Shown: positions 30,338 to 62,091 of the stretch, one piece after another
How positions within the stretch are numbered: the stretch's first letter is position 1
Layout of the letters: the number at the start of each line of letters is the position of its first letter
Assembly: GCA_033439265.1 (NCBI GenBank)
Contig: JAVTVX010000001.1
Coordinates: 18,494,608 to 18,558,607 of the forward strand
Source of the DNA: Dillenia suffruticosa
Taxonomy: Eukaryota; Streptophyta; Magnoliopsida; Dilleniales; Dilleniaceae
Length of the DNA stretch: 64,000 nt
Reading direction: 5' to 3'
Notes under the pieces: generated by a model
Databases searched by the model: none
What the model saw: only the letters and a program-made list of their open reading frames with translations
What the model was told of the DNA's origin: nothing
Position numbers and translations under genes: made by a program

Positions 30338-31106
30338 ATGGCCAAGTCCTTTGCTGCCTCCGTGTTCTACCTTCTCATTCTCCTTCCCCTCACAACAGGT
30401 TTGTTCTTCTACTAGTTATCAGTTAGATTATCACAGGGTTGGGTTGGTTATATGGATTTCTCTCTTGGACTCTTATTTTGTTTTTGTTTTTCTAATTAAA
30501 CATATTATTTTTAGTCATACGGCTCTATTTTGCTCCGTATACATAAAAAAGTTGCTATTTTTTTTTAAAAAAAATCGATAAGTATTTAGAATTATATTTC
30601 GACTAATTCAATTCGAATGTTGTTGGGTCAAATTTAGCGGGAGGTCTCTTAATGTAGTTTTTTTATTCCTAACTTTCGAACTTAATAATTGATTAGAAGA
30701 ATTAATATTTTTTTTATATTAAATCGATTGTCCATTCATTTTAAAGGTCGATAATTAGACTACATTTTGTGAAAATTTTATGATATATGATGAAAATTTT
30801 CTTTATTGTACAGTGAAATGCAGGGAGCTTACAAGTCCTGCAACTGGAATGGAGGCAAAGCGAGACTATGACTGCGAATTGGTGGTGAATGGAGGAGGGT
30901 GTCCCAGTGAGTTTCTATGTGAGAAGACATGTGCTCCTTGTTACCAAGGGGTGGGAAAAGTGCGGTCATACTGTGAAAATAGACTTCCTGTCTTTGGTTG
31001 CCATTGTCTCTTTGGTGAAGGTGCACCTTGCCCTCCACTTCCCTTTTGTCCTGGAGCCCATTCTAACCATTCCAATGTCACCATCATCAACTACCATACT
31101 CAGTAA
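30338..31106 (+). CDS. Secreted cysteine-rich (defensin-like) peptide, gene A
   Basis: Exon 1 30338-30398, exon 2 30814-31106, GT-AG, phase 1; 354 nt, 117 aa. The signal peptide is MAKSFAASVFYLLILLPLTT. The mature part keeps the array's core spacing C-x8-C-x5-C-x3-C-x2-C-x10-C-x8-C-x-C-x7-C and the GAPCPPLP turn, but it has one extra cysteine near the N-terminus, a longer linker before the core (about 18 residues) and an Asn/His-rich end instead of the PCPKP tail. The intron lies in the signal peptide, as in plant defensin genes. TATATATATAG lies about 60 nt upstream of the ATG. It is the most diverged member. Family placement rests on cysteine spacing only. Confidence 0.75.
30565..30725 (-). 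mobile_element. SINE copy in the intron of cysteine-rich gene A
   Basis: Ordered blocks AAATCGATAAGTATTTAGAA, GACTAATTCAATTCGAATG and GCGGGAGGTCTCTTAATG. Diverged; ends approximate. Confidence 0.55.
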
Positions 31107-32700
31107 AATTCATCACATTTTGGATGATGTAATGACGTTTCTAGAAGAGAAAAACAAAGTACCGGCATTCCTTTCCTTATCGATATGTATTTCTTTCGTT
31201 TTAGTAAATGAGAAACGTTTAAAGTATCTCATCACTTGTATCATGACTCATTGAGTCATTATCATTTGTATTTTTTCAACCATCGATTCCTTTTAAATAA
31301 AATCTTATAAAATAAATAAATATCAAAAGAATGTCGAGAGTTTTGCTCTTTAAAACCTAAATTCGACTCAAATAAGATTTAATCGAATTTAATATGATTA
31401 CTGGATAACGGTTACTTATCCCAAAAAAGAATTATTCTCTCTATCTTTCAATATTTTTTGTCACTTAAAAAATTTTTCCAAAAATTTTATACACTTACTT
31501 TGAAAATAGAAACATAAATATTTTTTTAAAAAAAAAGTTAAATGATTGCAATTTATTAATATGATTGCTCTTTGGCCAGACACTCACCATTGTAATGTTA
31601 CTGCTTCTAATTTCCATTTTTTTTTTGTCACCATAGGTGGGTAAATCATAAGAGTGATTGCATTACCCCTTTCCAAACAAGCTTTCTTGGTAGAATTGTG
31701 AAATTAATATTCTCGTCCAAATATTTATGGAATTTTCAGTATAAACCCTTTGAAAAAATTTATATATTTTTTATTTTTAATATTATTTCCTAAATATATA
31801 ATAATATTAATTTTGTTCATCCTCCCTCAATTATAAATAAATTCTTACCCTCATTAATTTCATATTTTTTGTTACTGTAATTTTGCTAAAACATTATTCA
31901 TACTATATTTAGGTAATATGTGTTATTATGATAACATAATATTTATTGTATTGGTAGAATTATCACCGCTGGAATTAAAGATTGGTTGTACGTAAATAAA
32001 ACTTATTGTATACCGTTTATAACAAATTGAATAATATATAATATTTTTTTTTAATTTCTCATTTTTCTTTTCATTTTTTAAACAAAATTATAATTCTAAT
32101 AAAATATCTATTTATCAGACTCACCTTTTATGCTTCTCACAGCATACATAATTTTGAATTTTTATTACTCTTATCACTTATTCACTTTCTCCTTTCATTT
32201 TTTTTTTTTTTTTTTTTAAGAAAGGCATTCAATCGAGTAAAATGAAAAATTCTAAAACCAAAGCATCTATCGAATGAAATCGATTTAACATAGATGTTTC
32301 AAGCTTTCCCCCTCCCCCCCCCCCAAAAAATCTGAATTCATATATTTATATTTACTATACTTTTAATTTATATAATATATATATTCATATATTTATAAAT
32401 CTATATCTATATTTTGTCCCATGAAATCAAATATTAACTGTGGCACTTTGGATAGGCACAGTGTTATTTTTTGCCATAGTGTAATATTAATATACAAAGT
32501 TTCTGTACACAAAATTATACTCAGTTTTACTTGTATACAAAGTTGAAAATTTCAAAATATTTATGTTAAAAGATAATTTTGAACGTATCTCAGATATCAT
32601 ATTAAAGATATATAGACTTATACCATGTTAGAGATATCAAATTTAATATAATAATAATATAAATCTTAATACTCCATTGTCTTAATTAAAGCATTATAGT
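31107..32700. other. Spacer after gene A
   Basis: Very AT-rich. It has a weak SINE at about 31315-31430 and a C-run/A-run near 32310-32330. No gene seen. Confidence 0.5.
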
Positions 32701-34140
32701 AGGTTGGGTTTATATAAAAAAAAAACTTATTTTCACAAATATGGAAATATAATATTATAAATACAATTAAATATTCTCAAATTAGATAATGTATTTCTTG
32801 ACATTCACTCTAAAAATTAATGTGTTATAATGAAAATTATTTGAATTTGAAAGAGAATCTAAATAAAAAACTTAAAATTCTAAGGGTGTTTTATAACTCT
32901 GGCCCTAGCTTTAGAATCTGGCTCTGGACTTTGGCTCTTGACTTTTGCTTTTAGCTCTAGATCTAAATCTGACCCTAGCTTCAGGCTATGGCTTCTCACT
33001 CTGGGCAAAGGATCTTGCTCTTTTGAAGGCTCATGTGCGTGCATGAATAACCCTTTTTACAAAAGGAGTTCTGATGCTATGTTAAAAGATAATTTGAATA
33101 TAATTATGATATTATATTAAAAAGATATGAATATGATTCTGATATTATATTAGAGATATTGGAGGTAATATAATAATAATATAAATTCTAATAATCTATT
33201 ATTTGAATTAAAGTATAATTTATATAAAAAACTCATTTATACAAATATAAAAATATAATATTATAAATAAGGTTAAATATTTTCAAAATCAAATCAATAA
33301 TTGATTTGATTTTTATATATAATATATTTTCTAATAATTTAAATTTCATATTATTGAAAATGTTAACAACAATATTGTTCCCAATTTTTATTTATCTACC
33401 GCATAATTGAAAACATGTATAATAGCCAGCCGCCCGTTTATGATGTTGAGTCGAATAGTGCCAAGTTTCCAATGGATACGATTAAGATGAAAATAAATTT
33501 TGTACTAAAAAATTGCAATCATCTAAAATCTTCATATTATTTATTTTTGTGTTTTTATGTCTTAACTTTTTAGTAAATACCCCAAAAATTTGACAAATTT
33601 TTTTAAATCAAGAAGAAAAGAAATATCGAAAGATGAAGAGGGTAATAAGAGCGGCTGTTATCGATAAATGACAACAATTTAGTAGATCGTCAAAGAGGTT
33701 CAGTTTAAATGGCATCTTTCTCCTCCTCTCATGTAATATACTCAATTTTGAGCCCCCATGTACGCACCAAAAAAAAAAAAAAAAAAAAAAAAAACAATTT
33801 AGTAGATTGTGATATAGATGATTTGTATGTTAAAACTACCAAATATTTTCTCATAAAATTGAGGCATATATGGGAAACTCCAATTCAATGTGGTGGAGGG
33901 ATTGTCAATACTTGTGATTTTTGTTATTATTTGAGTATCGACGTTTTTGAGGTTGATAGCCATTGGATCCATCTGAATTAAATACATTCCCTTCAAAAGT
34001 TTTCTAAAATTGTAAATTACAAGCTATAAAAATTTAATTCTGATTCATCTAACATTCATCGACTTTGTAGATATTAATTCTCATATATTAAAATAACCTT
34101 GACTCTTATTAAAATAACATTCATCTAATTCATCTAACAT
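32700..34140 (+). repeat. 5' flank of broken gene B, paralogous to that of gene C
   Basis: Ordered matches to about 44530-45640: CTTATTTTCACAAATATGG, TTCTAAGGGTGTTTTATAAC, a GGCTCT/TTTGGCTC run, ACCGCATAATTGAAAACATG, GATGTTGAGTCGAATAG and TTGCAATCATCTAAAAT. It diverges where the gene C TATA box and 5' UTR should be: the promoter end, leader and start codon are deleted (junction near 34150). Confidence 0.7.
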
Positions 34141-35240
34141 TCATCGACTTTTGCTGCTTCTAGGTTCAACTTTCTCCTGCTTCTCGTTTTCACTCACAAC
34201 AGGTTTGTTCCTTGGACTCTTATTTTGTTTTTTGTTTTTACTTTTCTAATTAAACATAAATAGATTGCCATATTAGATATACATCTACTTAGTTATTTGA
34301 TATTAATGATTTATAAAAAAAATATTAGTCGTACATTGATAATTTGCTATGTTCACATGAAGGGGTTTCTTCTACCTGAAAGAACACATCTAATGTCAAA
34401 ATTTGTTTGGATAATAATTATTTTACACATGTAGGTATAATTTTTTTTGGGTGATTTTATCAAAAAATTTACGTTTACACCAAAAATTTATTCTTCATAA
34501 TTAAAAATTTAACATTACTCATTCCCAGTTTTTATCTCTGATGCATGAAATGTGTTTAATATTTATATATTTATATATTTAATGAATTATTTGTTTATTT
34601 AATTATAATTTTTATTTTTATGTTATTTTTCTTATAATTAACGATTGCGTATTTAATTATTTTAGATTTTTATTATAAAATATTACTATTCCACTATGTT
34701 GATTGTCCCCCCCCCCATTATACAGGTGCAAAAATGCATTTATGGATTTTTCATTTTTTGTCCAAAAATAATTTAATAAATTATTGGCACGTGCCTTTAC
34801 GCATATGAATTTTACTTTGTATCTAACTCTCTTTATAGAGTCATATGCACTTGCATTAAAATCTGTATTCGAGATCAAATATTCAATTTTTAGTAACTAA
34901 ACTTTTCGTCCGGTGGTATCCTGGGTGCAATTAGTAACAACTGAATTTTAGATCTTATATTCCCTATCAGTTATATTAGAATATGTATATATTATTTGTA
35001 ATTCGTGACTAATACTTGAATTATATTTTTCGTTTGTTGCTGCTCTCATTTTGGTGCAAAATGTGGATGCTGAATGCAGCTATTTATCAATCACCGGAGG
35101 AGGATGCCCTGATGAGAGGAAGTGTGCAGAGACATGCAGGCCATGCTACCGGGGCATAGGAATTGTTACCTCATATTGCTATCCAAATTAAGGGATATAT
35201 ACTGCTTGGGAATGTCGCTGTGACTTGTCGGAGGGTGCAA

Positions 35241-35285
35241 TGTTGGAATATGTCCATTGAGGGGTATTTGGGTAATTTAGGAATG
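35241..35285 (+). repeat. Stub of the 5' LTR
   Basis: The first 45 bp match the 3' LTR with two differences; homology stops abruptly after TTTAGGAATG. The sequence that follows is not LTR-like, so most of the 5' LTR is missing or replaced. Confidence 0.7.
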
Positions 35286-35519
35286 TCGCTTGCATCTAAA
35301 TCTACAATTTCATGTCTTTTATTGTGAGTTTTGGATGTTGGAAACCTGGATTTCCGAATGGCCGCAGAGGGCCGCGACTGGGGTAGTTGGTTTTCGCTAT
35401 TTTTGGGTATGAATCCTCCTAAAATCGAGTGTAGGATGTTTGGAGGATGTCCATTAATTTTTTCTAGTCGAAAAATGTGAGAAAAAACAGTCAGAATCGA
35501 GTTTTCCGACAACCGGGTT

Positions 35520-35975
35520 GAAAAACCCGTTACAGGACACGTCGGGCGAAGAAGAAAGGCCCTGATCCACGGGTATGTGAGACGCACGCGCCCTAAGGCG
35601 CGTCCAGCAGGTGCGTGTACTTCACTCGCCACACAGGCGCGTGAAGCGGGGGGAGTCCCGGTTCGGGTCGGACCCTGACCCGGTCCGACCCGCAACAGAC
35701 ACGATCGGGGTGGGATACCGTTGACCCGACCCCGTTGACCGACCCAGTATGACCCGGTTCAACGCGTGAAGGGCGTGAGCCGCGCGCCGCGATTGGGCAC
35801 GTGTGAGCCGAGCTGCGCCAGGCACGTGGCGGCGCATGTGAGGCGCGGTGCGGGTCTGGCGCATGCGCCAGGCTACTGCCAGCGCGTGGAGGCACGTGGC
35901 AACGCGTGGAGCGCACCGCCGGCTGGCGGCGGAGCGTGTGGGCCCCGGGCGGCGCGTGAGATCGCTTAAAATTGA
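35520..35975. other. GC-rich island inside the copia leader region
   Basis: About 450 bp far richer in G and C than the rest of the window, with repeated GCACGTGGC, GCGCGTGAG and GACCCGGTYCGACC-type words. Several short frames open on both strands because stops are rare in GC-rich DNA; none resembles a protein. It is probably retroelement leader or captured sequence. Confidence 0.6.
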
Positions 35976-38900
35976 ATTTTTTCAATTTTTTTGGGGTCCT
36001 ATATCCATAAATGTGATTTTTTATGGATTTTTGTGTGCCGAATCAAAGTCCAAATGGTAAGATGCGATTCCGAGTTGTGGTGTATGGTGTCCGTTGACTC
36101 ATACGCTCGCTTTGGGGTCTGTACTCAAGTCATTTTGGTCTTGATGATTCGTAAGGCGTACAAAAATGTGATAATAAGCATCTCCAAATCACAAATGTCT
36201 CTCTTAATAAGTTGAGAACTGTTGTATTAAATTTTTGTAAGAAGAGTAAACTGAATGATGTGATTTACGAGATTTCACATCAGTAGATTCAGTTTATTCT
36301 CTAGAGATAAAATCTAACGGGAATCTAAGGCACGAGATGATGGGCCCTAGGGTGGGCATCGCGTCTCAGAATATACGAGATAAAGAGATCTATCGTGCAT
36401 GGTAGAAAAGAATTGTCAAGTTAGGGCAATCCTTATCAGTGGCATGCACGATGACTTAATCTCGTTCTACGAGTCATGTCCTATAGACATGTCGGTTCGA
36501 CTCACCTTATAAGAGCATTGTGTTGCTCTCTTCCGCTCCTAATGTGAGGATGCAGAAAAAAAGGGTTGATCATACAATGATGCAAATGTCGAGTATGATT
36601 ACCGAGTTAAGAAATACGGACGAGCAAATTTCGGATGAAATTTAGATATTGGATGTGATCCAATTTTTACCTGATTCATGAGAAACCGTTAAAACATATC
36701 TCATACTTGACGAAAGTATTTGTACTTTTGTTGACATGAATACGTAATGTGAGTTCGATGAGGAGCACCTATAGGCGAGTAGGCCACACTCGAGTCATGC
36801 TAATTTAGAGGAGTCAAGTAAGGACTTTCCTGACGCTAAACCAATAGCATAAGCATGTGAACGAGACTTGAGATCCAGATAATAAAAATCATCCGAGAAA
36901 ACCGACAACGAGGTACAAGAATGCAAGAAGAAGGAATTGATTAGACCAATGTAAATTGCTACGTTTGAGGTAGATTTGGTCATTTCGCTCGTTAGTGTGA
37001 CGAGTAGAAATTAATATCTTTTTTCTTTACGCGATTTGAGATTTGTCTCATTCACAATAATGTTCGTTGATTTCTCTCTTTTGTAATCAGGAGCAACCGA
37101 CTACGTAACTCGAGACAGGAGTGCGTAAATATAGTTCCGTCAAGTGAATCCTTAAGCTTGGAGGATTTTCGTTAAGAACAGAATATTTGTCGTTGTTAGA
37201 GGGAACGACACTTGTCATGACGTTCTTAATACTGTTGGCATTCGACGGATTTTCAATTTAGTACCTTGTCTAAGATTGACTAGGATATGCGTGAAATTAT
37301 TCTTTTTTTTTTAATAATATGACAATTCTATGAATTGTTCTGATTATAATCCATGATGGATTATATGCACTAGATGCTGCTTCTTTTAATGGTTCCTTAT
37401 TGTTCTACTATTGACTTTACATCTGATTGCGTAGATGATGATGTAAATGAATAACATAGTAAACTTAGACACATGGGGTAAGAGATGATGAATCGGTTAG
37501 TAGTGAGAGATTTATTAGATCCACTGACCAGATTCGAGTTACCCGTATGTGAGTTTTGCCTAACTGGCAAAATGACGAAAGAAACATTTGGCAATGCAAT
37601 GAGAGCTGAGACTCCATTGCAGTTAGACCATTGTGCCTTCCTTTTTTCTTGTAGTCTTATGAGCATGAAAGCCGAAAATGGAGTTGTATAGATAATTATA
37701 GATGCTTACGTGTGTTTTGATTCATCTATCTGATCTCGCATAAGTCTGAGGCATTAGACTGCTTCAGGAGATTCATAAGTGAGATTAGGAATCAGTTAGA
37801 TTTGAGAGAAGAGACTATCAAAACTGATCGAGAACGCAAACATTCATCTAAACTACACATGGAGCTTTGTTTCGAAAAGAGTATTACGAGATTACTGACT
37901 ATTAGTCAGTTCCCCATTTGAACTTTGGACAGGGAGGCAGCCTGACCTTAGCCACTTGAGGTTATGAGATTGTGCCGCGATTTCTCGCATTCACACTATG
38001 AGTTAGGCCCGCGAGAATATACTGTTCCTAGGCGAACACAGACAGCGCTATAATCGAAATTGAGTCTCGTAATAACACATTACTTGAGAATGATTTCCCT
38101 AAAAGAGGTGAAATCACTTTGGACCTTACCCTTTATGCGATGGATGAGTCTAGTTGCTCAGGGAGCCCAGTGGCGGGATACAAGAATCCATTAAGGATTT
38201 TGATCTCAATGGGAGTGATCCATCAAGAGGTAAAGATTTTTCTCTCCTCATAAGAGCATCGAGAATGCGTATTTAAACGTTGTTTCTCGATTGATGGCGA
38301 GACCCTTGTTGCGACTATAGAGGATGATGAGAAATTTAAAACGGTTCTAGAGACTCTCTCGGGTTCTGCAAAAGATGAAAAAGACCGTTTATTGAAGGCC
38401 ATAAATGAAGAGAAGAAGTTGATGAGAATCAACGGGGTCTGGGACCTAGTTGATTTGCCTGAGAGCGGAAGGACTATTGGGAACAAAAAGGTTCTCAAAG
38501 TTAAGATAAAGGTCAACGGATTGATGAAGAAGTAAATAACCCGTCTAGTAACAAAGGGTTACACTTAGACTGAGGAGTGGACTATCGAGGAGTCATAATC
38601 CAATTTATCTCGATCCGTTTATCTTTTAGTGATTGTCATGAACATGGATCTAAAGTTACATCACAAGGACGTAAAGACCGTTTTCGTAGTGGAAGTTTAG
38701 ATGGGGCGATCTACATGGAGCATCCCTCTGAGTTCGTTCTAGTAGATCAGGTGGATAAGGTTTGTTGATTTTAAAAATCAAAATACGACCTTAAACCATC
38801 ATCCAGACAGCGGCGCGTGAGATTTCACGAGAATGTGATATCTTATGGTTTTGTAATGATCGAGTAAGATCATTGTATGTATCTGAAACGTCCCGATGGC

Positions 38901-40973
38901 TTCTTTATGAGCACGTTCTCATATGTAAGTGACATTCTGTTGACCGGGAACAACAGAGAGTATCCAATGACCATTGTAACATGGTTATGAGATTTTAGTT
39001 CATTCTCGAATTTTGGATCCATAAGGATCGCTTGAGAATGGTGTTAACTCTTTAATAAGAGTTTTACATCAGGTAGATTTTTGAGTATTTCGAGATGATC
39101 GATGATGACCTGGTATATACTCTATCGCTAAAGATAAAAACCTGATTCTTGACACGTATCCTAAAATTTATCAAGAAATAAGGGAAATGAGCAGAATCCC
39201 TTATTGCAGTGCAATGTATATTTTAGTGTAAGCGATGAGGTATACACATGTGATATACAGTTTAATGTATGCGATGAGGCATACATGGCCAGACGTTTAT
39301 TTTAAATCCTGGAATGGATCACTGTAGAGTAGTGAAAAAGGATTCTGAAATATCTTATTTGAACAATGACCTCTCTCCATGTGTTACGGATGAGGTGATT
39401 TGCGTTTTTCGTTGGGATTCAGATACTGACTGAGAGTAGCGATCTGAATAAACGCAAACTAATATTAGGTTTTATCTTCTTAGAGCAGTAAGAAGAGAAC
39501 CTGTATATCTTTAACGATAGAGACTGAGTTTATAGTATACTCAATTGTAGTTCATGAGAATTGTTGGCTTCAGAAATTTCTGAATGACTTAGGGTCGTGA
39601 CAGATAGTGGGAGGTTAGTGATAATTATTGTGATAATCAGATCGACACTGTCAACAAATGAGACCCTAAGTGTTATAGTAAAGCCAAACACATTGATACC
39701 GAAAACCACTTTGTGAGAGATATTACCGAGAAGGGTATTGTGACAGCTAAGTACACCTTGACATATAGTATGATAGCTGATCTCTTCAAAAAATCCCGTT
39801 GTGAAAGATTCCTTTATGAGATAAGGAATCATTGGGTTTAATATATTTTAACATTTCTCATTATGTATTGTTAATACTTATTGAAATATATAACATGCAT
39901 GCATTATTGTGTCACATATTTATTTCATGCATTATTTATTGTCATATATTGTGATCTTGTGATAAAAGATGTGTCAGGCAGGTGTGGTCAACTCTCTCAC
40001 ACGAGTAAGCACCTCCGACTCTGAGTGAGCGGAGAAGAGACGGTTTCTAGTCGTAAGAGGCTTTGAGAGTGACCCTACTAGAATATAAGTCGCCCTGATA
40101 TGTGTTCAGGATGAGATCATATGCGATATGACCGATATGGAAATACCCACATCCATGTTGCCTGTAAGTAGCCAGATTTGAGATCTCAGATATCACCTGT
40201 AATTTGTGATATTGTCTCTGAGATGCTCTTTCTGAGATTTCTGGATAAAGTCTTATGTGTAAACTGAGTCTCGTACTTGTACAGTGTTAAAGAAATCTGA
40301 CATATGCCATTTGAGAGATAGGGGAATAATACTGTGGCACGTATTTTATACCACGTGTGATGAGATGACCATGGGATAGTGGGAGCTATTATTTGAGATG
40401 ATAGTTTGATTTTGATCCCCGTTCCCACTGTGTGAGACCTGAGATCCATTGGGTGGGATCTTTTATACCCTTATTACTTTCGGCTGTCTCTAGAAGTTTT
40501 GGTTCTGTATTGCTACTTTAGTCTGTTTACCTTTGGCCCGGAAGATAAATTGAGGTCTAAGGGAAAGCAGCTGAATTGAAACTGATAGATTCGAGTTTGG
40601 GAAAAGGAAGACCAATAGACATTATATCATTGTCATGTATTCATAGGTCGACCTATTATGTTAATCCATGTTGGGATTCAAACATAATAATGAATACATA
40701 GTCGAGCAAATTGATTGGGGATCACTTTCGATGAGGAAAGTAGCTCGATGGATATAAATGCATTGAGTTTGGAGTATAGCGAGTAATTTTTATACTAACG
40801 GTGACTTCTCGATCATCCTAACAGGAGTATCGAGAAATCTTTGCTTGCAAGTGTACTCGCCGGTCGCACGACGTCCAATCCTGTATGAAAGTCTAGAAGG
40901 GTGATGTGATAGATCGCATGGATGTGATCTTGTGATTGACGGACATAAAATGTCCTCATGTGCAAGTGGGAGA

Positions 40974-41431
40974 TGTTGAAATATGTCCATTGAGGGATAT
41001 TTGGGTAATTTAGGAATGAGGTAACTCCCATCATTAACCACTCAATTAAGGGGTAACTCCCCGATTAAGCCCAAAAGATGCCCATGTGAGTAAGGGTCTT
41101 CTTTCTTCATGCGTGAACAGTAATCATGAGAAGAAAAATAAGGGAGAAAATGGCTAGGATTGCACAATTCTCTAGAGAGAGAAAATACCGTGAGGGTTAG
41201 AGATTTTCCCATAGGAAAATCTCCCATCGTCAAACGATTTACCGGACATGAAGATTGATGCGTCGTGGATTTGCGGTGGTGGTTCGATTGAGTGATCACC
41301 ATCCGACTGTGCAATCCGTTCGAGAGAAATCGCTATACGATCGATTTTGGAGACCGTTATATCAATGTATTTATCCCAAAAAATTTCAAACTATTTATTT
41401 TATGCTTCCGCATGTGCGATTAAATCCAACA
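40974..41431 (+). repeat. 3' LTR of the copia element
   Basis: 458 bp, TGTTGAAATATG... to ...AAATCCAACA, with a 6-bp terminal inverted repeat-like pair and the polypurine tract directly before it. Confidence 0.8.
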
Positions 41432-42031
41432 TACACCTTATCCTCCCCCTCCGGGTCCAGTTCCCTGTCCCAAACCCAATTGACGTTAATGGAATCAAAC
41501 CCAGGTTCCTATGTAAACTCTCCCCTTTTTACACCCTTTTTTTAGTTGGATTTTTTACCCCCTTTCGTTTCACAATAAAGTGCTAAAAGCAATTAAGATT
41601 TGCACATTCTAGTTTTTTATTCTCTTCTTCAATAGTAATGCCTTTATTTTGTCTTTTTTCTTAATTTAACTTCGAATGAATGAATTATGGAGCGAGTTTT
41701 AGTTTGATGGTAAGAAAATTATGTATTTTATGCATGGTTTCTAGTCTCAAACAGCCCTTTTTTTTTTTGAATAAACGAATATGTGACATGAATGGAACTT
41801 AAAGGAAAAAGAAAATGAGAAAAAGACTAAACTGCGGTGTTGGATTGACCCAGAACGCTCGAGGGTTGGATTATCTATAAAAATTGCAGTTACAGAGTAT
41901 AATCACAATATGAAAACACTCAATACAACACAAGGGCCTAGAAAGACGGTGAATAATGTCCGAAAGGCTTTAGAAGTTAATTCGAGGCCTTCTGACGTTT
42001 TTCTCTCTAGCCCACGTTAGATCACGCGCCA
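41432..42031 (+). repeat. 3' flank of gene B, paralogous to the gene C 3' flank
   Basis: The block matches about 46986-47455, with extra sequence in the middle (about 41640-41740). It contains an AATAAA signal (TTTCACAATAAAGTGC). The match is interrupted by the CACTA element at 42032 and resumes at 43320 for a few tens of bases (CCACAAGAGAACATCC). Confidence 0.7.
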
Positions 42032-43319: not shown

Positions 43320-43322
43320 CCA

Positions 43323-44331: not shown

Positions 44332-44712
44332 GAAAAAAGTATGTTTGAACATAATGCACATACAACAATGGGACTAGCAAATATGTGGACCTGCATAAGT
44401 CTTTAGTCGAATTCATTTTAAATAAATTTGAATCCTTAATTATAAATGACAAGTGAAATGGAATAACTTATTTTACGTAAATTATAAGTGAAATAACTTC
44501 ATTCAAATGAAGTTAATTATAAGTTAATTCATTCAAATTAAGGAACTTTTTTCATAAATATGGAAATATAATATTATAAATAAAATCAAATATTCTCAAA
44601 CTAAATAATATATTTTCTGATATTCTCTTTTAAGATCAATGTATTATAATAAAAATTATTTAAATTTGAAAGAGAATCTAAATAAAGAATTTAAAATTCT
44701 AAGGGTGTTTTT

Positions 44713-50249: not shown

Positions 50250-50471
50250 GATACAATAAATCCAGATTTTCTCTCCAAGTTCTGCAGGTTGAAGAGAAAA
50301 TAGGGCTTGATTGAAAACATTGAAAAATGAACAAAAATTAAAAGTTCTTCACCTTTTTTATAGAATCTAACCAAATCTTACTAAATCTCAATTACCAGAA
50401 AACCACAAAGCAAAGGCACCAAACACTTGTCCGCAATTGAAATTCTTGGCTTTTGCAAATCATCTCAATTC

Positions 50472-50481
50472 TCTATATAAA
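50472..50481 (+). promoter_or_regulatory. TATA box of gene D
   Basis: TCTATATAAATCC about 55 nt before the ATG (unit 2: 61590-61599). The upstream 200 bp define the second promoter class of the array, different from that of A and C. Confidence 0.65.
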
Positions 50482-50533
50482 TCCATACCACATGGAAGAG
50501 CAAAATTCAAAACATAATCTACTTTGTGCAGAG

Positions 50534-50973
50534 ATGTCGAAGTTCTCTACTTCTTCCAATTTCACTCTTGTGTTATTCATCTTAGGTTTGTTCTTTGAAC
50601 AACATATTTTTTGTCGCATGTTTACGTTGATCTAATGTGTGATATAAACACTTAAGGACTAATATTAATGTTTTTTTTCTTTGTAGCTACTCTCATTTTG
50701 GTGCAAAATGCGGATGCTAAATGCAGCTATTTATCCACCATAACAGGAGGGTGCCCTGATAAGAGCAAGTGTTTAGACGCATGCAGGCCATGCTATGTGG
50801 GGATAGGACGTGTTACCGCATATTGCTATCAAAATACAGGGATCTATCCTGCTTGGGAATGTCGTTGTGACTTCTCAATGGGCGCACCTTGTCCTCCCCC
50901 TCCGGGTGCATTTCCCTGTCCAAAACCTTCTGCTGTTGTGGGTTACTCGAATCAAACCCAAGATCCTGTGTAA
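50534..50973 (+). CDS. Secreted cysteine-rich (defensin-like) peptide, gene D
   Basis: Exon 1 50534-50585, exon 2 50687-50973, a 101-bp GT-AG intron in phase 1; 339 nt, 112 aa. The signal peptide is MSKFSTSSNFTLVLFIL to LVQNADA. Mature ten-cysteine pattern as in gene C, with RPCYVGIG, YPAWECRC, GAPCPPPPG, and a longer tail ending NQTQDPV; NQT is a possible N-glycosylation site. It has a compact intron and its own promoter type. AATAAA occurs about 45 nt after the stop. Function not known. Confidence 0.83.
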
Positions 50974-51955
50974 ACTCCCCCTTTTATCCCCCCACCCCAC
51001 CCTTTTCCTTTCTCAATAAAGAGCAATAGTCAATGAAGATATGGCTTCCAGTTTTCTATTCTCTTCTTACGGCAAGCTTCATTTTTTTTTTAATTTCGAA
51101 CGAATAAATGTATTAAAATGTTTTTTTTTTTTAAAAAAAGTAAAAGAAGAAACACTCGATATGCACAACACAAGTCTCTCTCTAACCTCCCTTTTCTCTC
51201 TCTAGGAAGATAGTGATGTGTCAAGGTAGTGTCTATCTTTGCATCAAAACTATTATTTCTCATGCCTAACTAATCAAAATAATTAATTATTTTCTTAATC
51301 ATTAGGAGATAAATCACTATTTTTCTGAGATACTACAAAAATTTTTTCTCTCAATTCCAAATACCCCGATAAAATAAATACATAATAAGCACCAAAAACT
51401 TTTATAATTGAAATCTTCAATATTTATCACTTATGCATCACCAACAAACTATTTTAAACCCCTAAATCTTTAATAGTAGTATTAAGGTATAACAACAACA
51501 ATCAACTGAGTTTTAATTTTAAATTTTATAGTCGCCTATCTAAGAAACTAATATATGAGTGTGGAGAAAAAAAATAATATAAAATTAAATTTTAAAAACA
51601 ATAATAAAGAAGATAAAACTAAAAAATAAAAATAATGAAAAAGAAGTAAAAAATAATAGTATTAAGGTATTTAAATTATATTAAAAGTGATACTTTTGGT
51701 ATCGCAACTTAGTTTGAGTACCGTCAAAATTTGGTAGAGTCGAGCGTTTAGATCTCATTGTCATAATTTTAAAAAATAAATTGCTATACAATTATAAACA
51801 ATTTTAAAATTTCTATAATTTTTTAGAAAAAATCATTAACCATAATTAACCAATCTTCACTTAATCACAAAAAGTAACGAAATAAAAGGGGATATGGTGG
51901 TGCAATTGTGCTAGGGTTCCTCAAATAAGAGAGAGTACCGAGGTATGGGTGAACT

Positions 51956-51996
<41 letters not shown>

Positions 51997-52139
51997 GGAT
52001 CATGAAAATACACATGTCGCAAAATACATATACCCATGAAGGATTGAATACTAAATCACGGAGAAAACATTTAAATAAAAGTTTTTTTTCATTTAAATAT
52101 TTTTACAACAACGGTAAACTCTAGCATGAGAGGGATTGT
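50974..52139. other. Spacer after gene D
   Basis: AT-rich, with a (TA)n tract at about 51958-51990 and several A/T runs. No gene or clear transposon end seen. Repeated at 62092-63257. Confidence 0.5.
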
Positions 52140-52881
52140 ACAAAAAATTGAACAATCAACAAAAAAAAAAAAAAAAAAAAAAACTAAGTTTTCACCTTTT
52201 TATTAAATTCAACTAAATCTCAGTAAATCTCAATCACCAAACTCCAAGTAAATGCACCAAACCATATTTGTCTATTATTTGTCTTTTCTAATCATAACAT
52301 CTTTTGATAAAATAAATTCACACCCGTTTCAGCATTTGTGAGAATAAAAAAAATATGTAATCAAGAAAATCAATATAAAATTATAAAATAATAATAATAA
52401 TAAAATTTACATGATTTGACCAACATGTCTACATTCACGATGGGAAAAGAAATATTTGATCTCATTATATAGGAGGAGGAGAGGTACAAAATATATAGAT
52501 ATAACATTGAGAACATTCCCTAGCACCTCAAGGAATTCATGAGGAACCCACCAAACCCTACAATGGAAACCTAAAAGGGGAACTCCCAAAATTCAATAAA
52601 GAATCCCACCAAATGGAATCTTCCAAAGAGAAGCAACTAAACTTCGGGGGTATATCATCTTTGGGTAGCCATTGAATTATAATTCAATTAATATCGTTCG
52701 TTTTTTTCATTAAGATTTTGAGTATCAAGCTTTCTCTATGTATCAAAAAAAAAAAAAAATCATCTTCCAATGTAGTAGTCCAAGAGCAGAAACAAAATAG
52801 ACCTGATGAACATTATTAAAATTGTTAGAATTGAATCACCAAATTGATAAGAAAAATTCAAAATATCATCTACTTTGTTTA
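52140..52881 (+). pseudogene. Orphan D-type promoter remnant
   Basis: 52180-52300 repeats the D-type upstream order (TTTTCACCTTTTTATTAAAT, CAACTAAATCTCAGTAAATC, TCAATCACCAAACTCCAAG, AATGCACCAAACC). 52850-52881 repeats the stretch just before the D start (AAATTCAAAATATCATCTAC). About 500 bp of unrelated AT-rich DNA separate the two parts and no signal-peptide exon follows. Unit 2 repeats this at 63258-64000. Confidence 0.55.
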
Positions 52882-53149
52882 ATTTAAATTTCCTATTTCT
52901 TTTCCTCTATTAATTCAAATTATGGTAATTTGAGTTACTTACATAAAAGATTTGTCAATGCAATCCAAATTGTTCAAAGAATAATTCATGGAGATCTTTT
53001 TTCTACATAATTGATATTAAAAATTAAAAATTCTGATTTAGTTGTGACTAGCTTTATTTTTTCAAAAGGAATGATGTCAACGGCAAATCTAATAATAAAA
53101 CTCAAACCCTGACAATCTCTATTGTCCAATTCTACACTAAATCTCACTC

Positions 53150-53465
53150 ACCACCACCAAATCCTACACATTGAAGAGAAAATAGGCTTTGAACAATGAA
53201 CAAAAAGCATAAAGTCTTCACTTTTTTTTTTTTTTGGAAATTCAACAAAATCTTACTAAATCTCAGCTACCAAACAAGAAGTTGTTCATTGTTTGAATTT
53301 TTCCATATTTTTTAATTATTTGATCTCTCTATAAATCAGAGTTATTATTAAAACTCGAAACTGCTTTCTTAAACTTCTGGATGCACCCATGGCTTAATTA
53401 TATCTAACCATACCAAATTCATACCACAAGATCAAAATTGAGAGCATCCCCTACTTTGGGTGGAG
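53150..53465 (+). promoter_or_regulatory. Promoter and leader of gene E
   Basis: D-type blocks (TCCTACACATTGAAGAGAA, AAATCTTACTAAATCTCAGC, ACCACAAGATCAAAATTGAG, CTACTTTGGGTGGAG) plus a TATAAA at 53330-53335. Compared with D, about 70 bp are added between the TATA box and the ATG. Confidence 0.6.
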
Positions 53466-53861
53466 ATGTCCAAGTTCTTTGCCTGTTCTTCCAACTTCAC
53501 TCTTCTGCTATACTCCTTAGGTTTGCTCTTTAATTTGAACAACAACCTTTAATGGTATCCTTATGTTCTCCATGACGCATATGCTAAAATGCGTTTTCCT
53601 GCCAGCTAGTTTGTTATATGATTTCTTCTTTATAAAATTGGTTGATTTCTTCAAAATATTTAGTTTTAAAATTAAAAATTTTATTTTTAATCTTAAGAGT
53701 GCTTTTGAAAATGCATAAGGCAAAAGTTATTTTTCGTGGTAATTTAGGTAACAAAAAAAGAATTAAACCTAAGAAATTAGCACTAAAACAAATTTAGTGC
53801 TCAATTTTCAGTTTATCAGAAAGACCTCAAGGAAATATTCTAAGACCTTGAACCAAAAACA

Positions 53862-53910
<49 letters not shown>

Positions 53911-53943
53911 GTATGTATGTATATGTATGTATGTATGTATATA

Positions 53944-53979
<36 letters not shown>

Positions 53980-54549
53980 TGTATGTATGTGTATGTGTAT
54001 GTGTACCCATCAATGGACCGTCAGTCTAGTGGGTAAGGGTATTAAGTCTCTTAAACAATTCTCACATTTGATACTTGAAAATAGAAAAATCAAGTTGGAA
54101 GAGCTCTCTCTAAATTTGGTTTGATAATACTCGGATTAGTTGGAATATGAATTCGGGTACCGATTGTTTATATCACACACATATATATATACATGAGCGC
54201 GCGCACACACACACACCCATGTATATATGGTTGATATTAATTGATTGAATTGTTTTGGCAATGTGCAGCAACTCTAATTTTGGTGCAAAATGTGAATGCT
54301 GGTTGCAGCTATTTATCAACCTCAAGCGGAGGATGCCCAGATCTGAACGTGTGCTTGGAGACATGCAGACCTTGCTACTTAGGAATAGGGCAAATTAGGG
54401 CATATTGCTACAAGAATCCTGCATTGCCTTTTTATGAATGTAGGTGTGTATTCACAAAGGGTGCACCTTGTCCTCCCCCACCCGGTTCACCTAAATGTCC
54501 TAAACCTCCTGCGGTTTTGGCTCAGAACCAAATTCAAAGCCCTCAATGA
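53466..54549 (+). CDS. Secreted cysteine-rich (defensin-like) peptide, gene E
   Basis: Exon 1 53466-53520, exon 2 54269-54549, GT-AG, phase 1; 336 nt, 111 aa. The signal peptide is MSKFFACSSNFTLLLYSL to LVQNVNA. Core cysteines are conserved (GGCP, VC-x3-C-RPC, YLGIG, AYC, ECRC, GAPCPPPPG, KCPKPP), with a Gln-rich end. The region between the sixth and seventh cysteines differs from C and D (KNPALPFYE), consistent with divergence of an exposed loop. The 748-bp intron holds an ATGT/TA microsatellite and a SINE. Part of duplication unit 1; its unit 2 copy would be beyond the window. Confidence 0.82.
53862..54004. repeat. (TA)n / (ATGT)n compound microsatellite
   Basis: A TA tract passes into tandem ATGT units and then GTATGT variants, within the intron of gene E. 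Confidence 0.92.
54020..54172 (+). mobile_element. SINE copy in the intron of cysteine-rich gene E
   Basis: The head resembles a degenerate box A (GTCTAGTGGGTAAGGGT). The body reads CTCGGATTAGTTGGAATATG and GGGTACCGATTGTTTATATC. It follows an ATGT microsatellite. Confidence 0.7.
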
Positions 54550-55319
54550 AACACCCCCCCCAAAAAAAAAGGAAACTTTATTTCCTTTTCCCTTTACATC
54601 TACAATAAGGAAGAATGTCAAATGAATTTTAGTTTTTTTTCTTCTTCGATGCAGTGTTTTTATTACACCTCTTCGAATGAATAAATGAATAAATAAATTG
54701 GCAAACTTTGTCCTAATAATAAGGGTAGTGAAGCCTTTAATAAAGATAGAAAATGCAGCTTAGGCTTTGGGGATTGTGACTTCTGCCAACTTATGATGCA
54801 GGGCGTGGGAAATGGTTGCTTTTTCACAAGAAGAGAGATGTGATTAGTTTATGACTATTAACGCCAAATTGCAAGTGAAAACTTTTTTTTAACCAAGATA
54901 TGCTTATCCTCCCTTGAACGTGCTAAGCTTAGGCGTACTCGCGCCATTACTCAACAACATGGAAGTCCCACGAAATCACCTGCCAAAGTTAACTTTGGAC
55001 TAATTGGTTTGGGAGCACTATAGTTGCTGCATGGTATAAGCTATGATTATGGTCTTATGAGAAAGAGAGAGAGAGAGAGAGAAGGAGAACGCGAAATTGA
55101 TGCAAAACACCGTTCATGTAAAACACCATCAACAATAGTTGGTCTCTTTGCGACTTATATTTATTTCTCCTTTTGTATATGTATTGTCTGTCATTTGGTT
55201 TAACAGAAACAAGGTGGTGTTTGAAGGAAATCATTTCCCTGGGTAGCAAAGGAAATTTATGCAAAACCTTTCTTTCAAGAGTGTCCCACTTCAAAACGAA
55301 CCTCTCTAAAATGTTGGTG
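54550..55319. other. Gene E 3' flank
   Basis: Ordinary AT-rich flank with a (GA)n run at about 55062-55081. No gene seen. It ends at the CACTA fragment. Confidence 0.5.
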
Positions 55320-55450
55320 CACTATAAGAAAACACGTCATCAGTGATAACGGAAAATTACTGACGGAAAAAAATCTATCGGTAATAGTGATGGATTTGCG
55401 ACAGATTAATATCAGACCGAATACCGAGAGATTAGCGATGGATTAATGAC
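55320..55450. mobile_element. Truncated CACTA end at the duplication junction
   Basis: Begins CACTATAAGAAAACACGTCA, then GATAACGGAAAATTACTGAC, TCGGTAATAGTGATGG and GATTAGCGATGGATTAATGAC, the same subterminal style as the element at 42032. It stops after about 130 bp where unit 2 begins; there is no right end. Confidence 0.8.
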
Positions 55451-56811
55451 GAAAAAAGTATGTTTGAACATAATGCACATACAACAATGGGACTAGCAAA
55501 TATGTGGACCTGCATAAGTCTTTAGTCGAATTCATTTTAAATAAATCGAATCCTTAATTATAAATGACAAGTGAAATGGAATAACTTAATCTACGTAAAT
55601 TATAAGTGAAATAACTCCATTCAAATGAAGTTGATTATAAGTTAATTCATTCAAATTAAGGAACTTATTTTCATAAATATGGAAATATAATATTATAAAT
55701 AAAATCAAATATTCTCAAACTAAATAATATATTTTCTGATATTCTCTTTTAAGCTCAATGTGTTATAATAAAAATTATTTGAATTTGAAAGATAATCTAA
55801 ATAAAGAATTTAAAATTCTAAGGGTGTTTTTATAACTCTGGCCCTAACTTTGAAATCTGGCTCTAGGCTTTGGCTCAGCCTTTGGCTATTGACTTTGGCT
55901 CTTGGCTCTGGATCCAGGTCTGGCTCAAGCTTCGCGCTATGGCTCCTCGCTCTGGGCTCTCACTCAAGATCTTGCTTTTTTGAAAGCTCATGGGGGGTGC
56001 ATGAATGACCCTTTTTGCAAAGGGGGGGGTTCTAATGCCATTTTAAAAGATAGTTTGAATATAATCTTGATATTATATTAAAAATATATGAATATGATTT
56101 TGATATTATGTTAGAGATATAGGAAGTAATATAACAATAATATGAATCATAATACTCTATTATCTGAATTAAAGTACAATTTATATAAAAAAAACTTATT
56201 TTTACAAATATAGAAATATAATATTACAAATAAGATTAAATATTTTTAAAATCAAATCAATTATTGATTTGATCTTGATATATAATATATTTCATAACAA
56301 TTTAAATTTCATATTATTGAAAATGCTAACAACAATATTGTTCCCATTTTTTATTTATCTACCGCATAATTGAAAACATGTATAATAGCTAGCTGCTCGT
56401 CTATGATGTTGAGTCGAATAGCGCCAAGTTTCCGATGGATCCGATTAAGACAAAAATAATTTTTGTACTAAAAAATTGCAATCATCTAAAATTTTCATAT
56501 TATTTATTTTTGTGTTTTTATGTCTTAATTTTTTAGTAAATACCCCAAAAATTTGGACAAAATTTTTAAAATTATGAAGAAAAGAATTTTTTAGTAAATT
56601 CCCTTCAAAAGTTTTCTATAATTATAATTTATAAATGATAAGAATTGAATTCTAATTCATTTAACATTCATTGACTCTCTGGATATTAATTCTTATATAA
56701 TAAAATAACCTTGATGAAAAAATATATATAATTAGTAAGTCCAACCTGGGCATGGCAAAATTTCTGTATATATAGAAGAGCTAAGAACCCCTCAAACTCA
56801 ACAAATCAAAC

Positions 56812-58151
56812 ATGGCCAAGTTCTTTGCTGCTTCTAGGTTCAACTTTCTCCTGCTTCTCATTTCACTCACAACAGGTTTGTTCCTTGGACTCTTATTTTG
56901 TTTTTTGTTTTTACTTTTCTAATTAAACACAATAGATTGTCATATTAGTTATACATATACGTAGTTATTGGATATTAATGGTTTATATAAAAAAAATATA
57001 TTAGTCGTACATCGATATTTTGCTCTGTGCACATGAAAGGCTTCTTCTACCTGAAAGACGAATACATTTAATGTCAAAATTTGTTCGGATAATAATTATT
57101 TTACACATGTAGGTATAATTTTTTTTTTCATGATTTTATCAAAAAATTTATGTTTACATGAAAAATTTATTCTTCATAATTAAAAATTTTATATTACTCA
57201 TTCCCGGTTTTCATGTCTGATGCATGAAAACTTCTCAACACTAATATTTCTCAATTTTCAAAATGTCTTAATAGATTAATTTAATTAATATTTATATAAA
57301 TATGTTTATATTTTTATATTTAGTGAATTATTTACTTATTTAATTATAATTTTTATTTTTATGTTATTTTTCTTATGTTTAACAATTACGTGATTGATTA
57401 TTTTAGATTTTTATTATAAAATATTACTATTCTATTATTTTCATAAAATATTTAATATTTACATATTTCCATACATTTTCATTTTATTATTCTGATAAAA
57501 TACTGTTTCTGTGTTTTATTTTGCATCTATTTTTATTTTCAATTTTCATTTCGTGTAACTTAGCTTTTCATTAGTTCCCTCAATAAATCCAAAATTTTCT
57601 CACCAAATTCTACACATTGAGCAACAAACAAAAATAGAATTTCATATCTTTTTATCATATCTAACCAAATCTCATTGAATCTCAATCGCCAAACTCGAAC
57701 TAAAGACATCAAATGCTTGTCCATTTTTTGGAATCTCTATATTTTCTATTCACGTCATCTCTACATAAACTCGTACCACATTGAAGAACAAATTTGAAAA
57801 CATCCTCTATTTTGTGTGAAAACATCCTCTATTATCATATTAGAATTTGTATATATTATTTGTAATTCGTGACTAATACTTGAATTATATTTTTCCTTTG
57901 TAGCAGCTCTCGTTTTGGTGCAAAATGTGGATGCCGAATGCAGCTACTTATCAATCATTGGAGGAGGATGCCCCGATGAGAGCAAGTGTGCAGAGACATG
58001 CTGGCCATGCGACCGGGGCATAGGAACTGTTACCGCATATTGCTATCTAAATTCAGGGATCTATCCTGCTTGGGAATGTCGCTGTGACTTCTCGGATGGT
58101 GCACCTTGTCCTCCCCCTCCGGGTCCAGTTCCCTGTCCCAAACCCAATTGA
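56812..58151 (+). CDS. Secreted cysteine-rich (defensin-like) peptide, gene C' (duplicate of C)
   Basis: Exon 1 56812-56875, exon 2 57904-58151; 103 aa. Both coding exons are identical to gene C as far as I can compare, including the signal peptide, ten cysteines and GAPCPPPPGPVPCPKPN end; the intron again holds the D-type promoter-like region. The promoter is also the same from about -990 to the ATG. C and C' would be indistinguishable to most assays based on coding sequence. Confidence 0.82.
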
Positions 58152-58884
58152 CGCTAATAAATCAAACCCAAGTTCCTATGTAAACTCTCCCCTTTTTACC
58201 CCCTTTCCTTTCACAATAAAGTGCTATAAGCAATTAAGATATGCACATTCTAGTTCTTTATTCTTTTCTTCAATGCTGGTTTCTAGTCTCAAACAGCCCC
58301 TTTTTTTGAATAAACGAATATGTGACGTGAATGGAACTTAAAGGAAAAAGAAAATGAGAAAAAGACTAAACTGTGGTGTTGGATTGACCTAGAATGCTCA
58401 AGTGTTGGATTATCTATAAAAATTGCAGTCACAGGGTATAATCACAATATGAAAACACTCAATACGACACAAGAGCCTAGAAAGATGGTGAATAATGTCC
58501 GAAAGGCTTTAGAAGTTAATTAGAGGCCTTCTGACGTTTTTCTCTTTAGCCCACGTTAGATCATGCGCCACGAGAGAACATCCATCACCTGCCTGTGACT
58601 CAGCTGATGTTTGAAGCCTCTGGTGCATCTGTTTTTGTTCGGATCCGGTGTCGCCTTTTTGGGCCTCGTTTCTATCTTTGTGATTTTGGGTTGAGCCCAT
58701 TATGGCCCGCTTGTTTTTATTGGTTTTTTTTTTCTAAAAAAATAAACTATTAATATCCGGGGAGATCATGTTAGAGTTGATTAAATCTGATTTGAATCAT
58801 TTTTTATCCATAAGAGATAAATTTCTTCTTACACTTGTCTTTGTGATGTATAAAATTCAACTTCGCGGACCAACTATGGATTAT

Positions 58885-59061
58885 TTTTTTTTTTTGGTTT
58901 TCACTATCAGTATCTGAGTTTTTTCCCATTAATTTAGTTCGAGCACTGTGGGGTCTATTTTAGGGGTTGGTTCTTTTTAATTTTTTTTTAATATTTTTAA
59001 TACTCAAATTTAAAATTTTTAATTAAAAAATAGAATGTCTAATCAGACGAAAAAATTATGT
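58885..59061 (-). mobile_element. SINE with target-site duplication (unit 2 copy)
   Basis: The same insertion as at 47767-47943, carried in the second duplication unit. Flanking repeats lie at 58872-58884 and 59062-59074. It is shared by duplication, not by independent insertion. Confidence 0.83.
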
Positions 59062-59572
59062 AACCATGGATTATCGCTTGTTTTCATTATTGTCTTGGCC
59101 TAAAAAAAGGGGTAATAGAAAACTGTGGGCTCCCTGTCCTAGATCCAAATTCTAACGAGGGCATCGTTAAGAATTGTTGCTTCGACAACAAAGAGAGATT
59201 AAATAAAGTTTGACTAGGCAATCAACCCAAAACTGCAGATCCCTCAACTTTATTTAACCCTGATATGATTGTCCAAATTAGGTTTAAAGATTACCAAAAA
59301 GGAAAAATCTTTCTCGTTTTAACAAAACTATTCAAATATAATCATTTCTCGGACGGAACTAATCAAATATAGTCATTTCTCTGCAATATTTAAATTTACA
59401 AAAGATGACATTTTTAATATCTCGTTTAGTTTTAGTCCCTTTCTACGTGGGGTTAAGCACTTAGATGGCATTGCCATGTCACTCACTTGACACTAAATAA
59501 TTTTAATTATCGCATTAAGATCAAATAATTCCACTATAACTCTAGATTTCTTGGTCTATACACTCTCTACCT

Positions 59573-60428
59573 TCTTACTAGCCATCCACTGATCTGAGAT
59601 CAACTGGAATTCAGATTGCAACTTCGATCTCTTTAAGCATAGCTTCTTGATTGCCAAAGCAAAAGGGTATTCTATTGCCGAAGTTTCTTGCTCAGATGCT
59701 AAGCTTTTTCACTACTCGAAAACAAACTGGGCTCTGATGAGCTAATCTTTGACAACATATCCTTGAGATCGTTCAAAAACTAAGGGTGATTGAACCAACT
59801 GTTAGGGTAACGAAAAGGGCAATGATCAGACCAACCCCTCGGCAACCCAAGTAGCTTATAAGATGGAAATTGCAAGCATTCTGTATTTGAAAAGGCCCTG
59901 TCAATCCTGCTCACAGAACCCCCTCCAAACCAAGTGTCTCACTAACGGGCGAGTGTCAAAGAAAGACTGAGCTACGAGTGTTAATATGACCCATATTTGA
60001 ATCACCCTTCTTTTACAAGAACTACCCAACCTCCTAAAATTCCATGGCAACATCTTCACTAGAAAAGATTAAAAACCCAAAACAAGTTACTAATTAGAGA
60101 GAACTACAGATTTGCAGTCCAATCCTCTTCCTCCTAGCTGATTCTGCAGAACCTCCAAGTCATTGCCAAGGCCTATGTTCAAAGCATAGCCCACCTTTAA
60201 TGTTTTTCCTTCTTGTTGGATATTACACCAAGCTGTTGACTCCTCAAAGTCATCTTCAGGGAGCATGATCCTACAATTTCCAACCAGTATAAGAGAACCA
60301 TTCGGCTGTCACTGTCCTCTCCATCCGTGTCTCCAATGCTTCGGTGATCAGTTAGGATCTTCGCCTTTCTACGCCTAAAAACCATGGGATAATTTTTCTT
60401 TTTGGTGCGCTCAGAAGGCAAAACATTT
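59573..60428 (-). mobile_element. L1-type LINE fragment (unit 2 copy)
   Basis: Identical arrangement to 48455-49310, carried by the duplication. Confidence 0.72.
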
Positions 60429-61651
60429 TCCCTAGGAAAGAACAGATTCTACCCGAATTTAGCCATTAATTAGCAGAATCACGAGATACACACTACTATC
60501 TTTTTGAAAGTTTATCACTCAAACCAACCGAGATTAACTTGAAGAATCATAGAAGTGGGTTATAGATCTAACATAGAGTTAGAAGCCACACCGGCTTGTT
60601 TTGCTTAAAAATGTTGTTCAATATTAATACAACGATAGAAAATTTTAGTATTATGAAAAAACAAAGAGTTCGATTTAAATAAAATTTTATTATTTTATTT
60701 AATATACGTTTGATATTTTTTATTGTAGAATCTTATTTTGTTTTTGTTACATCCAGGGGAAAAATGCTAGTTCCGTCATTGCTCACACTGCTATTTTAAA
60801 AGGAAAAAAAAAAGACGACTTACAAATAATATAGGAGTGATTTTTTATACATTGTGCTACAACAAGGTGGTCAAGCATACTGAACCACTTAGAAGTACAA
60901 TAAAGTCATTTTCTATACATTCTAAACTGCAAGCAAATATGTCCGTTTGGGGACCCATCTTCTTTACTACCTGTTTTTTGCATCCCAAGCAATAACCTTA
61001 AATAACTCTTAGGGTATCCTGCCAAGTCTGGTAGCAGAAGGTAGAGTCCCTTATGATTGCGTTTGGGTCTCCGTGTGCAACAATAGGTGCCCCCTGTACC
61101 ACGCTATGGCCAATTTGTCATCTTGACCGGACCAGGGAACAATGAGCCCAGCCTGCAGTTTTTGTAGGCTTGGTGGCTTTGGGCGTGGACTTAACTGAGT
61201 GCAGCTCAGGTGGGCTATACTATAGGATATTCTTGTTTGGGCATGCGTCTATTCAGTAAATTTTTAATAAAATTATTTAAAATTTCATTATTATGTAATT
61301 TTTATGTTAATCTCCAATAAATCTCAATTAAGACTCGTTTAAACTTTCCAAAAAGGCCTAAGTGATGGATACAATAAATCCAGATTTTCTCTCCAAGTTC
61401 TGCAGGTTGAAGAGAAAATAGGGCTTGATTGAAAACATTGAAAAATGAACAAAAATTAAAAGTTCTTCACCTTTTTTATAGAATCTAACCAAATCTTACT
61501 AAATCTCAATTACCAGAAAACCACAAAGCAAAGGCACCAAACACTTGTCCGCAATTGAAATTCTTGGCTTTTGCAAATCATCTCAATTCTCTATATAAAT
61601 CCATACCACATGGAAGAGCAAAATTCAAAACATAATCTACTTTGTGCAGAG

Positions 61652-62091
61652 ATGTCGAAGTTCTCTACTTCTTCCAATTTCACTCTTGTGTTATTCATCT
61701 TAGGTTTGTTCTTTGAACAACATATTTTTTGTCGCATGTTTACGTTGATCTAATGTGTGATATAAACACTTAAGGACTAATATTAATGTTTTTTTTCTTT
61801 GTAGCTACTCTCATTTTGGTGCAAAATGCGGATGCTAAATGCAGCTATTTATCCACCATAACAGGAGGGTGCCCTGATAAGAGCAAGTGTTTAGACGCAT
61901 GCAGGCCATGCTATGTGGGGATAGGACGTGTTACCGCATATTGCTATCAAAATACAGGGATCTATCCTGCTTGGGAATGTCGTTGTGACTTCTCAATGGG
62001 CGCACCTTGTCCTCCCCCTCCGGGTGCATTTCCCTGTCCAAAACCTTCTGCTGTTGTGGGTTACTCGAATCAAACCCAAGATCCTGTGTAA
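61652..62091 (+). CDS. Secreted cysteine-rich (defensin-like) peptide, gene D' (duplicate of D)
   Basis: Exon 1 61652-61703, exon 2 61805-62091; 112 aa, identical to gene D in both exons as far as I can compare, with the same 101-bp intron, TATA box (61590-61599) and AATAAA region. Confidence 0.83.

Follow-up and report, generated by a model that had tools for sequence, protein, structure and literature searches.

Here we report a tandem array of genes for small cysteine-rich peptides in Dillenia suffruticosa, which lies in a window of 64,000 bp (bases 18494608-18558607 of contig JAVTVX010000001.1, here C1; whole-genome searches covered 596 Mb in 37 contigs). We read the array, with reasonable though far from full confidence, as a ten-cysteine family of defensin-like secreted plant peptides of the cysteine-stabilised alpha-beta (CS-alpha-beta) type. 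A preliminary description of this DNA had proposed seven copies (A, B, C, D, E, C' and D'), and they are present at exactly the positions it gave, window 30338-62091, as six intact two-exon genes and one broken copy, B. The exon limits were set by self-comparison, exon searches and splicing, and the resulting features are the following (window coordinates):

30338-30398, plus strand: gene A, exon 1 (leader), with GT donor, phase 1
30814-31106, plus strand: gene A, exon 2, mature ten-cysteine peptide with tail GAPCPPLPFCPGA (exon search, splicing, spacing)
34147-34194, plus strand: pseudogene B, remnant of exon 1, without start codon
35039-35239, plus strand: pseudogene B, first part of exon 2; acceptor AG lost, in-frame TAA, then the interruption
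35240-41433, no strand assigned: degenerate insertion in B, about 6.2 kb
41434-41633, plus strand: pseudogene B, displaced tail end and 3' flank (self-comparison)
44332-55450, plus strand: tandem unit 1 (C-D-E), 11,119 bp
45693-45756, plus strand: gene C, exon 1
46786-47033, plus strand: gene C, exon 2 (mature peptide 46818-47030)
50534-50585, plus strand: gene D, exon 1
50687-50973, plus strand: gene D, exon 2 (mature peptide 50719-50970)
53466-53520, plus strand: gene E, exon 1
54269-54549, plus strand: gene E, exon 2 (mature peptide 54301-54546)
55451-64000, plus strand: tandem unit 2 (C'-D'; E' just past the window end)
56812-56875, plus strand: gene C', exon 1
57904-58151, plus strand: gene C', exon 2
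61652-61703, plus strand: gene D', exon 1
61805-62091, plus strand: gene D', exon 2

All six intact genes of the window have a GT-AG intron in phase 1 inside the leader, as the preliminary description had stated; it measures 101 bp in D and D', 415 bp in A, 748 bp in E, 1029 bp in C and 1028 bp in C'. The coding sequences of C and C' are identical, and so are those of D and D'. A search of the window with exon 2 of D recovered C (E 9.5e-31), B (5.5e-29), E (3.4e-26) and A (3.4e-12), and the homology among the array copies is far beyond chance. The acceptor of gene C has two successive AGs (TAGCAG, window 46773-46790), either of which keeps the frame, and two leader forms may be possible through this double acceptor. 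The intron of gene E contains a long TA/TATG microsatellite (window 53860-54010).

The mature peptides have ten cysteines, in the case of A if the chain is cut after a leader cysteine; the A precursor has an eleventh at the exon junction, which probably belongs to the leader. The core spacing 9-5-3-2-10-11-1-7-8, proposed earlier on the numbering of C, is exact in C and D, whereas the loops deviate in E (9-5-3-2-10-10-1-7-8) and A (8-5-3-2-10-8-1-7-5). Similarly, the motif GAPCPPPPG...CPKP had been assigned to every copy and holds for the C, D and E types and their copies, which alone have the exact CPPPPG...CPKP tail, but A carries GAPCPPLPFCPGA instead. Genome-wide, the codon pattern of GAPCPPPPG matches nine times, always in the array (reversed control, 0). 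In C, D and E, the mature peptide is 71-84 residues long and follows a hydrophobic leader that by inspection ends in VDA, ADA or VNA before the first cysteine. The ninth cysteine is followed by 13 residues in C and about 25 in D and E, one of which is a cysteine. The net charge of the mature peptides is -4.2 in C, -1.9 in A, +1.8 in D and +3.8 in E.

The family occupies 14 places in the host genome, to which the census was limited, and protein searches with D, G and A agree on this number (rows dropped as chance: two in one search, E 0.139 and 3.24, and one in another, E 2.53). C1 carries A, B, three copies each of C, D and E, and G, an intact gene with ten cysteines on the minus strand (C1:18306984-18307229), and a second contig, C11, carries the paralogs H (region C11:16756219-16759419) and F (region C11:17117637-17120855). 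There are five distinct intact gene types (A, C, D, E and G). On C11 the copies seem to be in decay: H lacks cysteine 2 and carries a long extension at its C-terminus, and in F, which keeps all ten cysteines, exon 1 joins out of frame as it stands. Matches to vicilin adjoin both the array on C1 and F on C11, and for this reason the two regions are taken as paralogous blocks. Judged by these blocks and by a synonymous divergence (dS) of 0.32 between G and H and of 0.42, 0.50 and 0.68 between F and C, D and E, respectively, the family probably predates the block duplication, and the array would then have grown on C1. Across the seven distinct paralogs, 24 of 75 alignment columns are invariant, including nine of the ten cysteines and GAPCPP, and conservation is strongest in the cysteines, GG-P, P-C-x2-G-x-G and GAPCPP. 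Cysteine 2 is absent in H alone; all seven keep cysteine 5, which immediately follows the predicted helix, and cysteine 10, which lies in the tail. As point estimates, paralog dN/dS is below 1, at 0.14-0.60 in 16 of 21 pairs that could be computed, with dS above 2 and near saturation in several of them and the five other pairs saturated; D against a piece of pseudogene B gives 1.14 over 39 codons.

Membership of the defensin-like (DEFL) peptides is likely. Eight of the ten cysteines align with C1-C8 of plant defensins once cysteines 5 and 10 are omitted, and when D is globally aligned with one of the classical defensins of the host genome, this placement arises unaided; the two that are left over make up the extra pair, and the preliminary description had already set one such pair outside the eight-cysteine pattern. 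A clean phase-1 leader intron is also present in three of the four classical defensin genes of the host genome, and in the fourth the sole in-frame join seen uses a poor acceptor. When the paralogs were globally aligned with nine defensins, none of 300 shuffles scored as high for D and F, and 7-18 of 300 did so for the other five; the corresponding numbers for two control families were 17-138 (EPF) and 12-179 (hevein/snakin). AlphaFold2 returned a beta-alpha-beta-beta topology in both of two models, with low confidence, and for one of them a plant defensin ranked first in structural comparison with a weak Z.

Other results weigh against this assignment. The classical motif CX(4,25)CX(2,12)CX(3,4)CX(3,17)CX(4,32)CXCX(1,6)C, as quoted in an excerpt of PMC7407236, matches none of five peptide forms (A in two forms, C, D and E), because the last loop has 7 residues and only 1-6 are allowed. 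With a last loop of 7 permitted, all five match, as do 1.3-2.0% of shuffled peptides; a tighter pattern, drawn after the data had been seen, matches 1-4 of 20,000 shuffles and fails on MsDef1, one of five defensins compared. The gamma-core GXCX(3,9)C is not in its beta2-beta3 place, the pattern matching only C2-C4. In none of the seven paralogs is there a Pfam match to Gamma-thionin (PF00304) up to E 10. That family has five places in the host genome at E 1, four of them over the curated cut-off and none in the array; the 14 family places stand apart from these four, which supports the earlier suggestion of a distinct subfamily. For C and G, the contrast between defensins and controls is small, since hevein/snakin (16/300 and 12/300, respectively) and, for C, EPF (17/300) fit about as well as defensins. 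The preliminary description had named profile-profile searches and structure prediction as checks. The former gave E 0.020 for defensins over 18 columns only (17 of 200 column shuffles as high) and E 0.092 for EPF (49 of 200), neither significant. In the latter, the expected topology appeared twice, but mean pLDDT is only 55 and 60, Foldseek returned no match below E 0.5 with either of them, and no CS-alpha-beta entry was among the 50 matches listed for the D model, where a missing row is no proof; these are mostly ferredoxin-like or RRM-type proteins, judged by name. What stands of the defensin-like reading is thus the cysteine order, the intron and the two low-confidence models, and what goes against it are the last loop, the gamma-core and the profiles.

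Of the other identities, an unrelated ten-cysteine fold with defensin spacing by chance would be consistent with the lack of any significant sequence or fold match, but CS-alpha-beta fits the spacing, the intron and both predicted topologies, and we regard the chance reading as unlikely. Further Pfam searches gave no family for four proteins, DUF326 (E 0.035) and the termicin family Toxin_37 (E 0.51) in one of five members each, and for the seven paralogs nothing above chance (termicin, E 0.4, in one). A sequence search of solved structures gave no match and a later one two at chance level (E 0.65 and 0.85), Rfam gave none at the gathering threshold, and no relative was found in the viral contigs, GTDB genomes and plasmids that were searched. 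The strings GAPCPPPP, APCPPPPG and GAPCPPPPG were not found in the literature searched, which is no proof of an unpublished family, the original DEFL catalogues lying outside that search; among GAPCPP, GCPDESKC, GCPDKSKC and ECRCDFSDGAPC, the sole match was one GAPCPP in a fern study.

Slightly less probable still are reproductive peptides of the PCP-B/ESF1/MEG type, that is, eight-cysteine pollen-coat or central-cell signals to which an extra pair would have been added. They have the same predicted fold class and, in an excerpt of PMC5215366, are secreted, cysteine-rich and members of a polymorphic family, but they have eight cysteines against ten here, and the array peptides have no Pfam match; the two are set apart by description, not by member sequences. 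An epidermal patterning factor (EPF/EPFL, stomagen) identity was considered because YPAWECRC is present, and is very improbable. EPFL hormones bind ERECTA-family receptors. The stretch CxxxCxPCY...YPxxWECRC recalls them in its local C-x3-C-x2-C and C-x-C, and hhalign aligns 31 columns over that stretch, but YP..W occurs in C, D and F and not in A, E, G and H, and the spacing that follows C-x3-C-x2-C is 10 here, 2 in EPF1 and EPF2, and 3 in EPFL9 (4-2-3). The block C-x(3,4)-C-x2-C-x(2,3)-C of EPF1, EPF2 and EPFL9 is absent from every peptide form, all of which have 3-2-10, and the variant C-x(2,3)-C-x2-C-x(2,3)-C, to which EPF1 and EPF2 conform and EPFL9 does not, occurs in none of five; with the profile match at shuffle level, the EPF identity was dropped.

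As members of a defensin-like family, the peptides would fold as beta-alpha-beta-beta, with cysteines 1, 2, 3, 4, 6, 7, 8 and 9 in the four defensin bridges 1-9, 2-6, 3-7 and 4-8, which correspond to C1-C8, C2-C5, C3-C6 and C4-C7 of the defensins. In the simplest pairing these four are joined by 5-10, a fifth bridge from just after the helix to the tail, which would probably hold the short proline-rich tail against the rest of the chain. Such a peptide would be active in the extracellular space, as a ligand or in defence. A role in binding or recognition (a cell-cell ligand, or defence through target binding) seems somewhat likelier than that of a general cationic membrane-active antibiotic, because the net charge spans about -4 (C) to about +4 (E) and the gamma-core is absent. 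By analogy only, the CPPPP run may be hydroxylated and arabinosylated.

Defensin-like genes number in the hundreds in plant genomes, with 317 in Arabidopsis according to an excerpt of PMC8838067. Plant defensins and DEFL peptides share with the array the phase-1 leader intron (in three of four classical genes of the host genome), the order C-x5-C-x3-C ... C-x-C and, in low-confidence models, the predicted topology; the array differs in its ten cysteines, a last loop one residue too long, the lack of a gamma-core in place and of a Pfam match, and its variable charge. A defensin-type head with a proline-rich tail is also found in the defensin-polyproline-linked proteins (Art v 1, Amb a 4, Par h 1), which excerpts of PMC5771466 and PMC10281898 describe as having an eight-cysteine domain and as so far known only from Asteraceae pollen; the segment that follows the Art v 1 domain shows partial order and makes contact with that domain (PMC10281898, excerpt). 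The solved chain of Art v 1 has 108 residues and its domain ends near 53, whereas the tail of the array peptides is short and includes a cysteine, so that an eight-cysteine domain with a long proline-rich tail is not what the array encodes. Petunia PhD1 and PhD2 likewise have ten cysteines, in five bridges, but in these the additional ones are placed between C1-C2 and C2-C3 (PMC7432377, excerpt), unlike in the array, where they come after C4 and C8 of the defensin set. FuCRP3 and FuCRP4 of Filipendula ulmaria, secreted ten-cysteine peptides called novel in an excerpt of PMC11050963, were compared by description only, which speaks for kinship neither way.

More tentatively, and with somewhat less than even confidence, the array may represent a lineage-specific CS-alpha-beta family whose defensin head and proline tail evolved apart from the Asteraceae allergens, with the tail clamped by the 5-10 bridge, possibly a hydroxyproline-glycosylated binding face, an origin before the block duplication, and growth as C-D-E units beside vicilin genes on one block. 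The family has a ten-cysteine pattern of its own, a conserved GAPCPP and no Pfam match, and is a clear addition to the defensin-like catalogue. It overturns nothing, secreted and tandemly amplified cysteine-rich peptides being common in plants, and is probably a branch, so far little described, of a well-known group of peptides.

The C-D-E unit is present three times in near-identical form, repeated head to tail from 55451. The array runs past the window, with E' from C1:18559196 and a third unit that begins at 95221 on the window scale (C'' start at C1:18589891, E'' stop at 18598755). From 45630 on, units 1 and 3 differ by 6 substitutions in 9,820 aligned bases. The near-identical units would reflect either a very recent duplication or a stretch duplicated by the assembly, and we make no choice between the two; the copy number may for this reason be partly an assembly effect. 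Whether an artefact accounts for part of the extra copies (C', D', E' and the third unit) is a question separate from the identity of the family and compatible with any answer to it, and we consider such an artefact conceivable but doubtful. It is favoured by the 4 substitutions in 9,819 aligned bases between units 1 and 2, the single one in 9,827 between units 2 and 3, the 18,946 comparable bp after unit 3 that are 100% identical to the stretch after unit 2, and the head-to-tail repeat with a period of 38,472 bp within C1:18558608-18618607. Against it, the 60 kb that follow the window contain no N, and nine of the ten substitutions between units 1 and 2 in the window part fall close together at 44429-44674, a pattern unlike that of uniform divergence between haplotypes. 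The older B/C duplication, with about 85-94% identity over the larger matching pieces, must moreover be real.

The insertion that interrupts pseudogene B has, near its ends, 46-bp direct repeats (35240-35285 and 40973-41018; 95.7% identity) and weak Ty1/copia-like traces, gag_pre-integrs (E 0.048) and RVT_2 (E 0.055), both below the Pfam cut-off.

Upstream of the array, the window contains two tandem vicilin (7S globulin) loci, at about 16483-19517 and 25778-28000. The second has CxxxC hairpin repeats N-terminally and matches Vicilin_N (E 9.4e-06, just under the cut-off) and Cupin_1 (E 7.5e-18), and the match of the first is weaker and partly interrupted. Open frames with other domains are zf-FLZ (14852-15214, minus strand), Exo_endo_phos2 (6817-7566, plus strand) and RVT_3 (reverse-transcriptase-like/RNase H-type; 22619-23164, plus strand).

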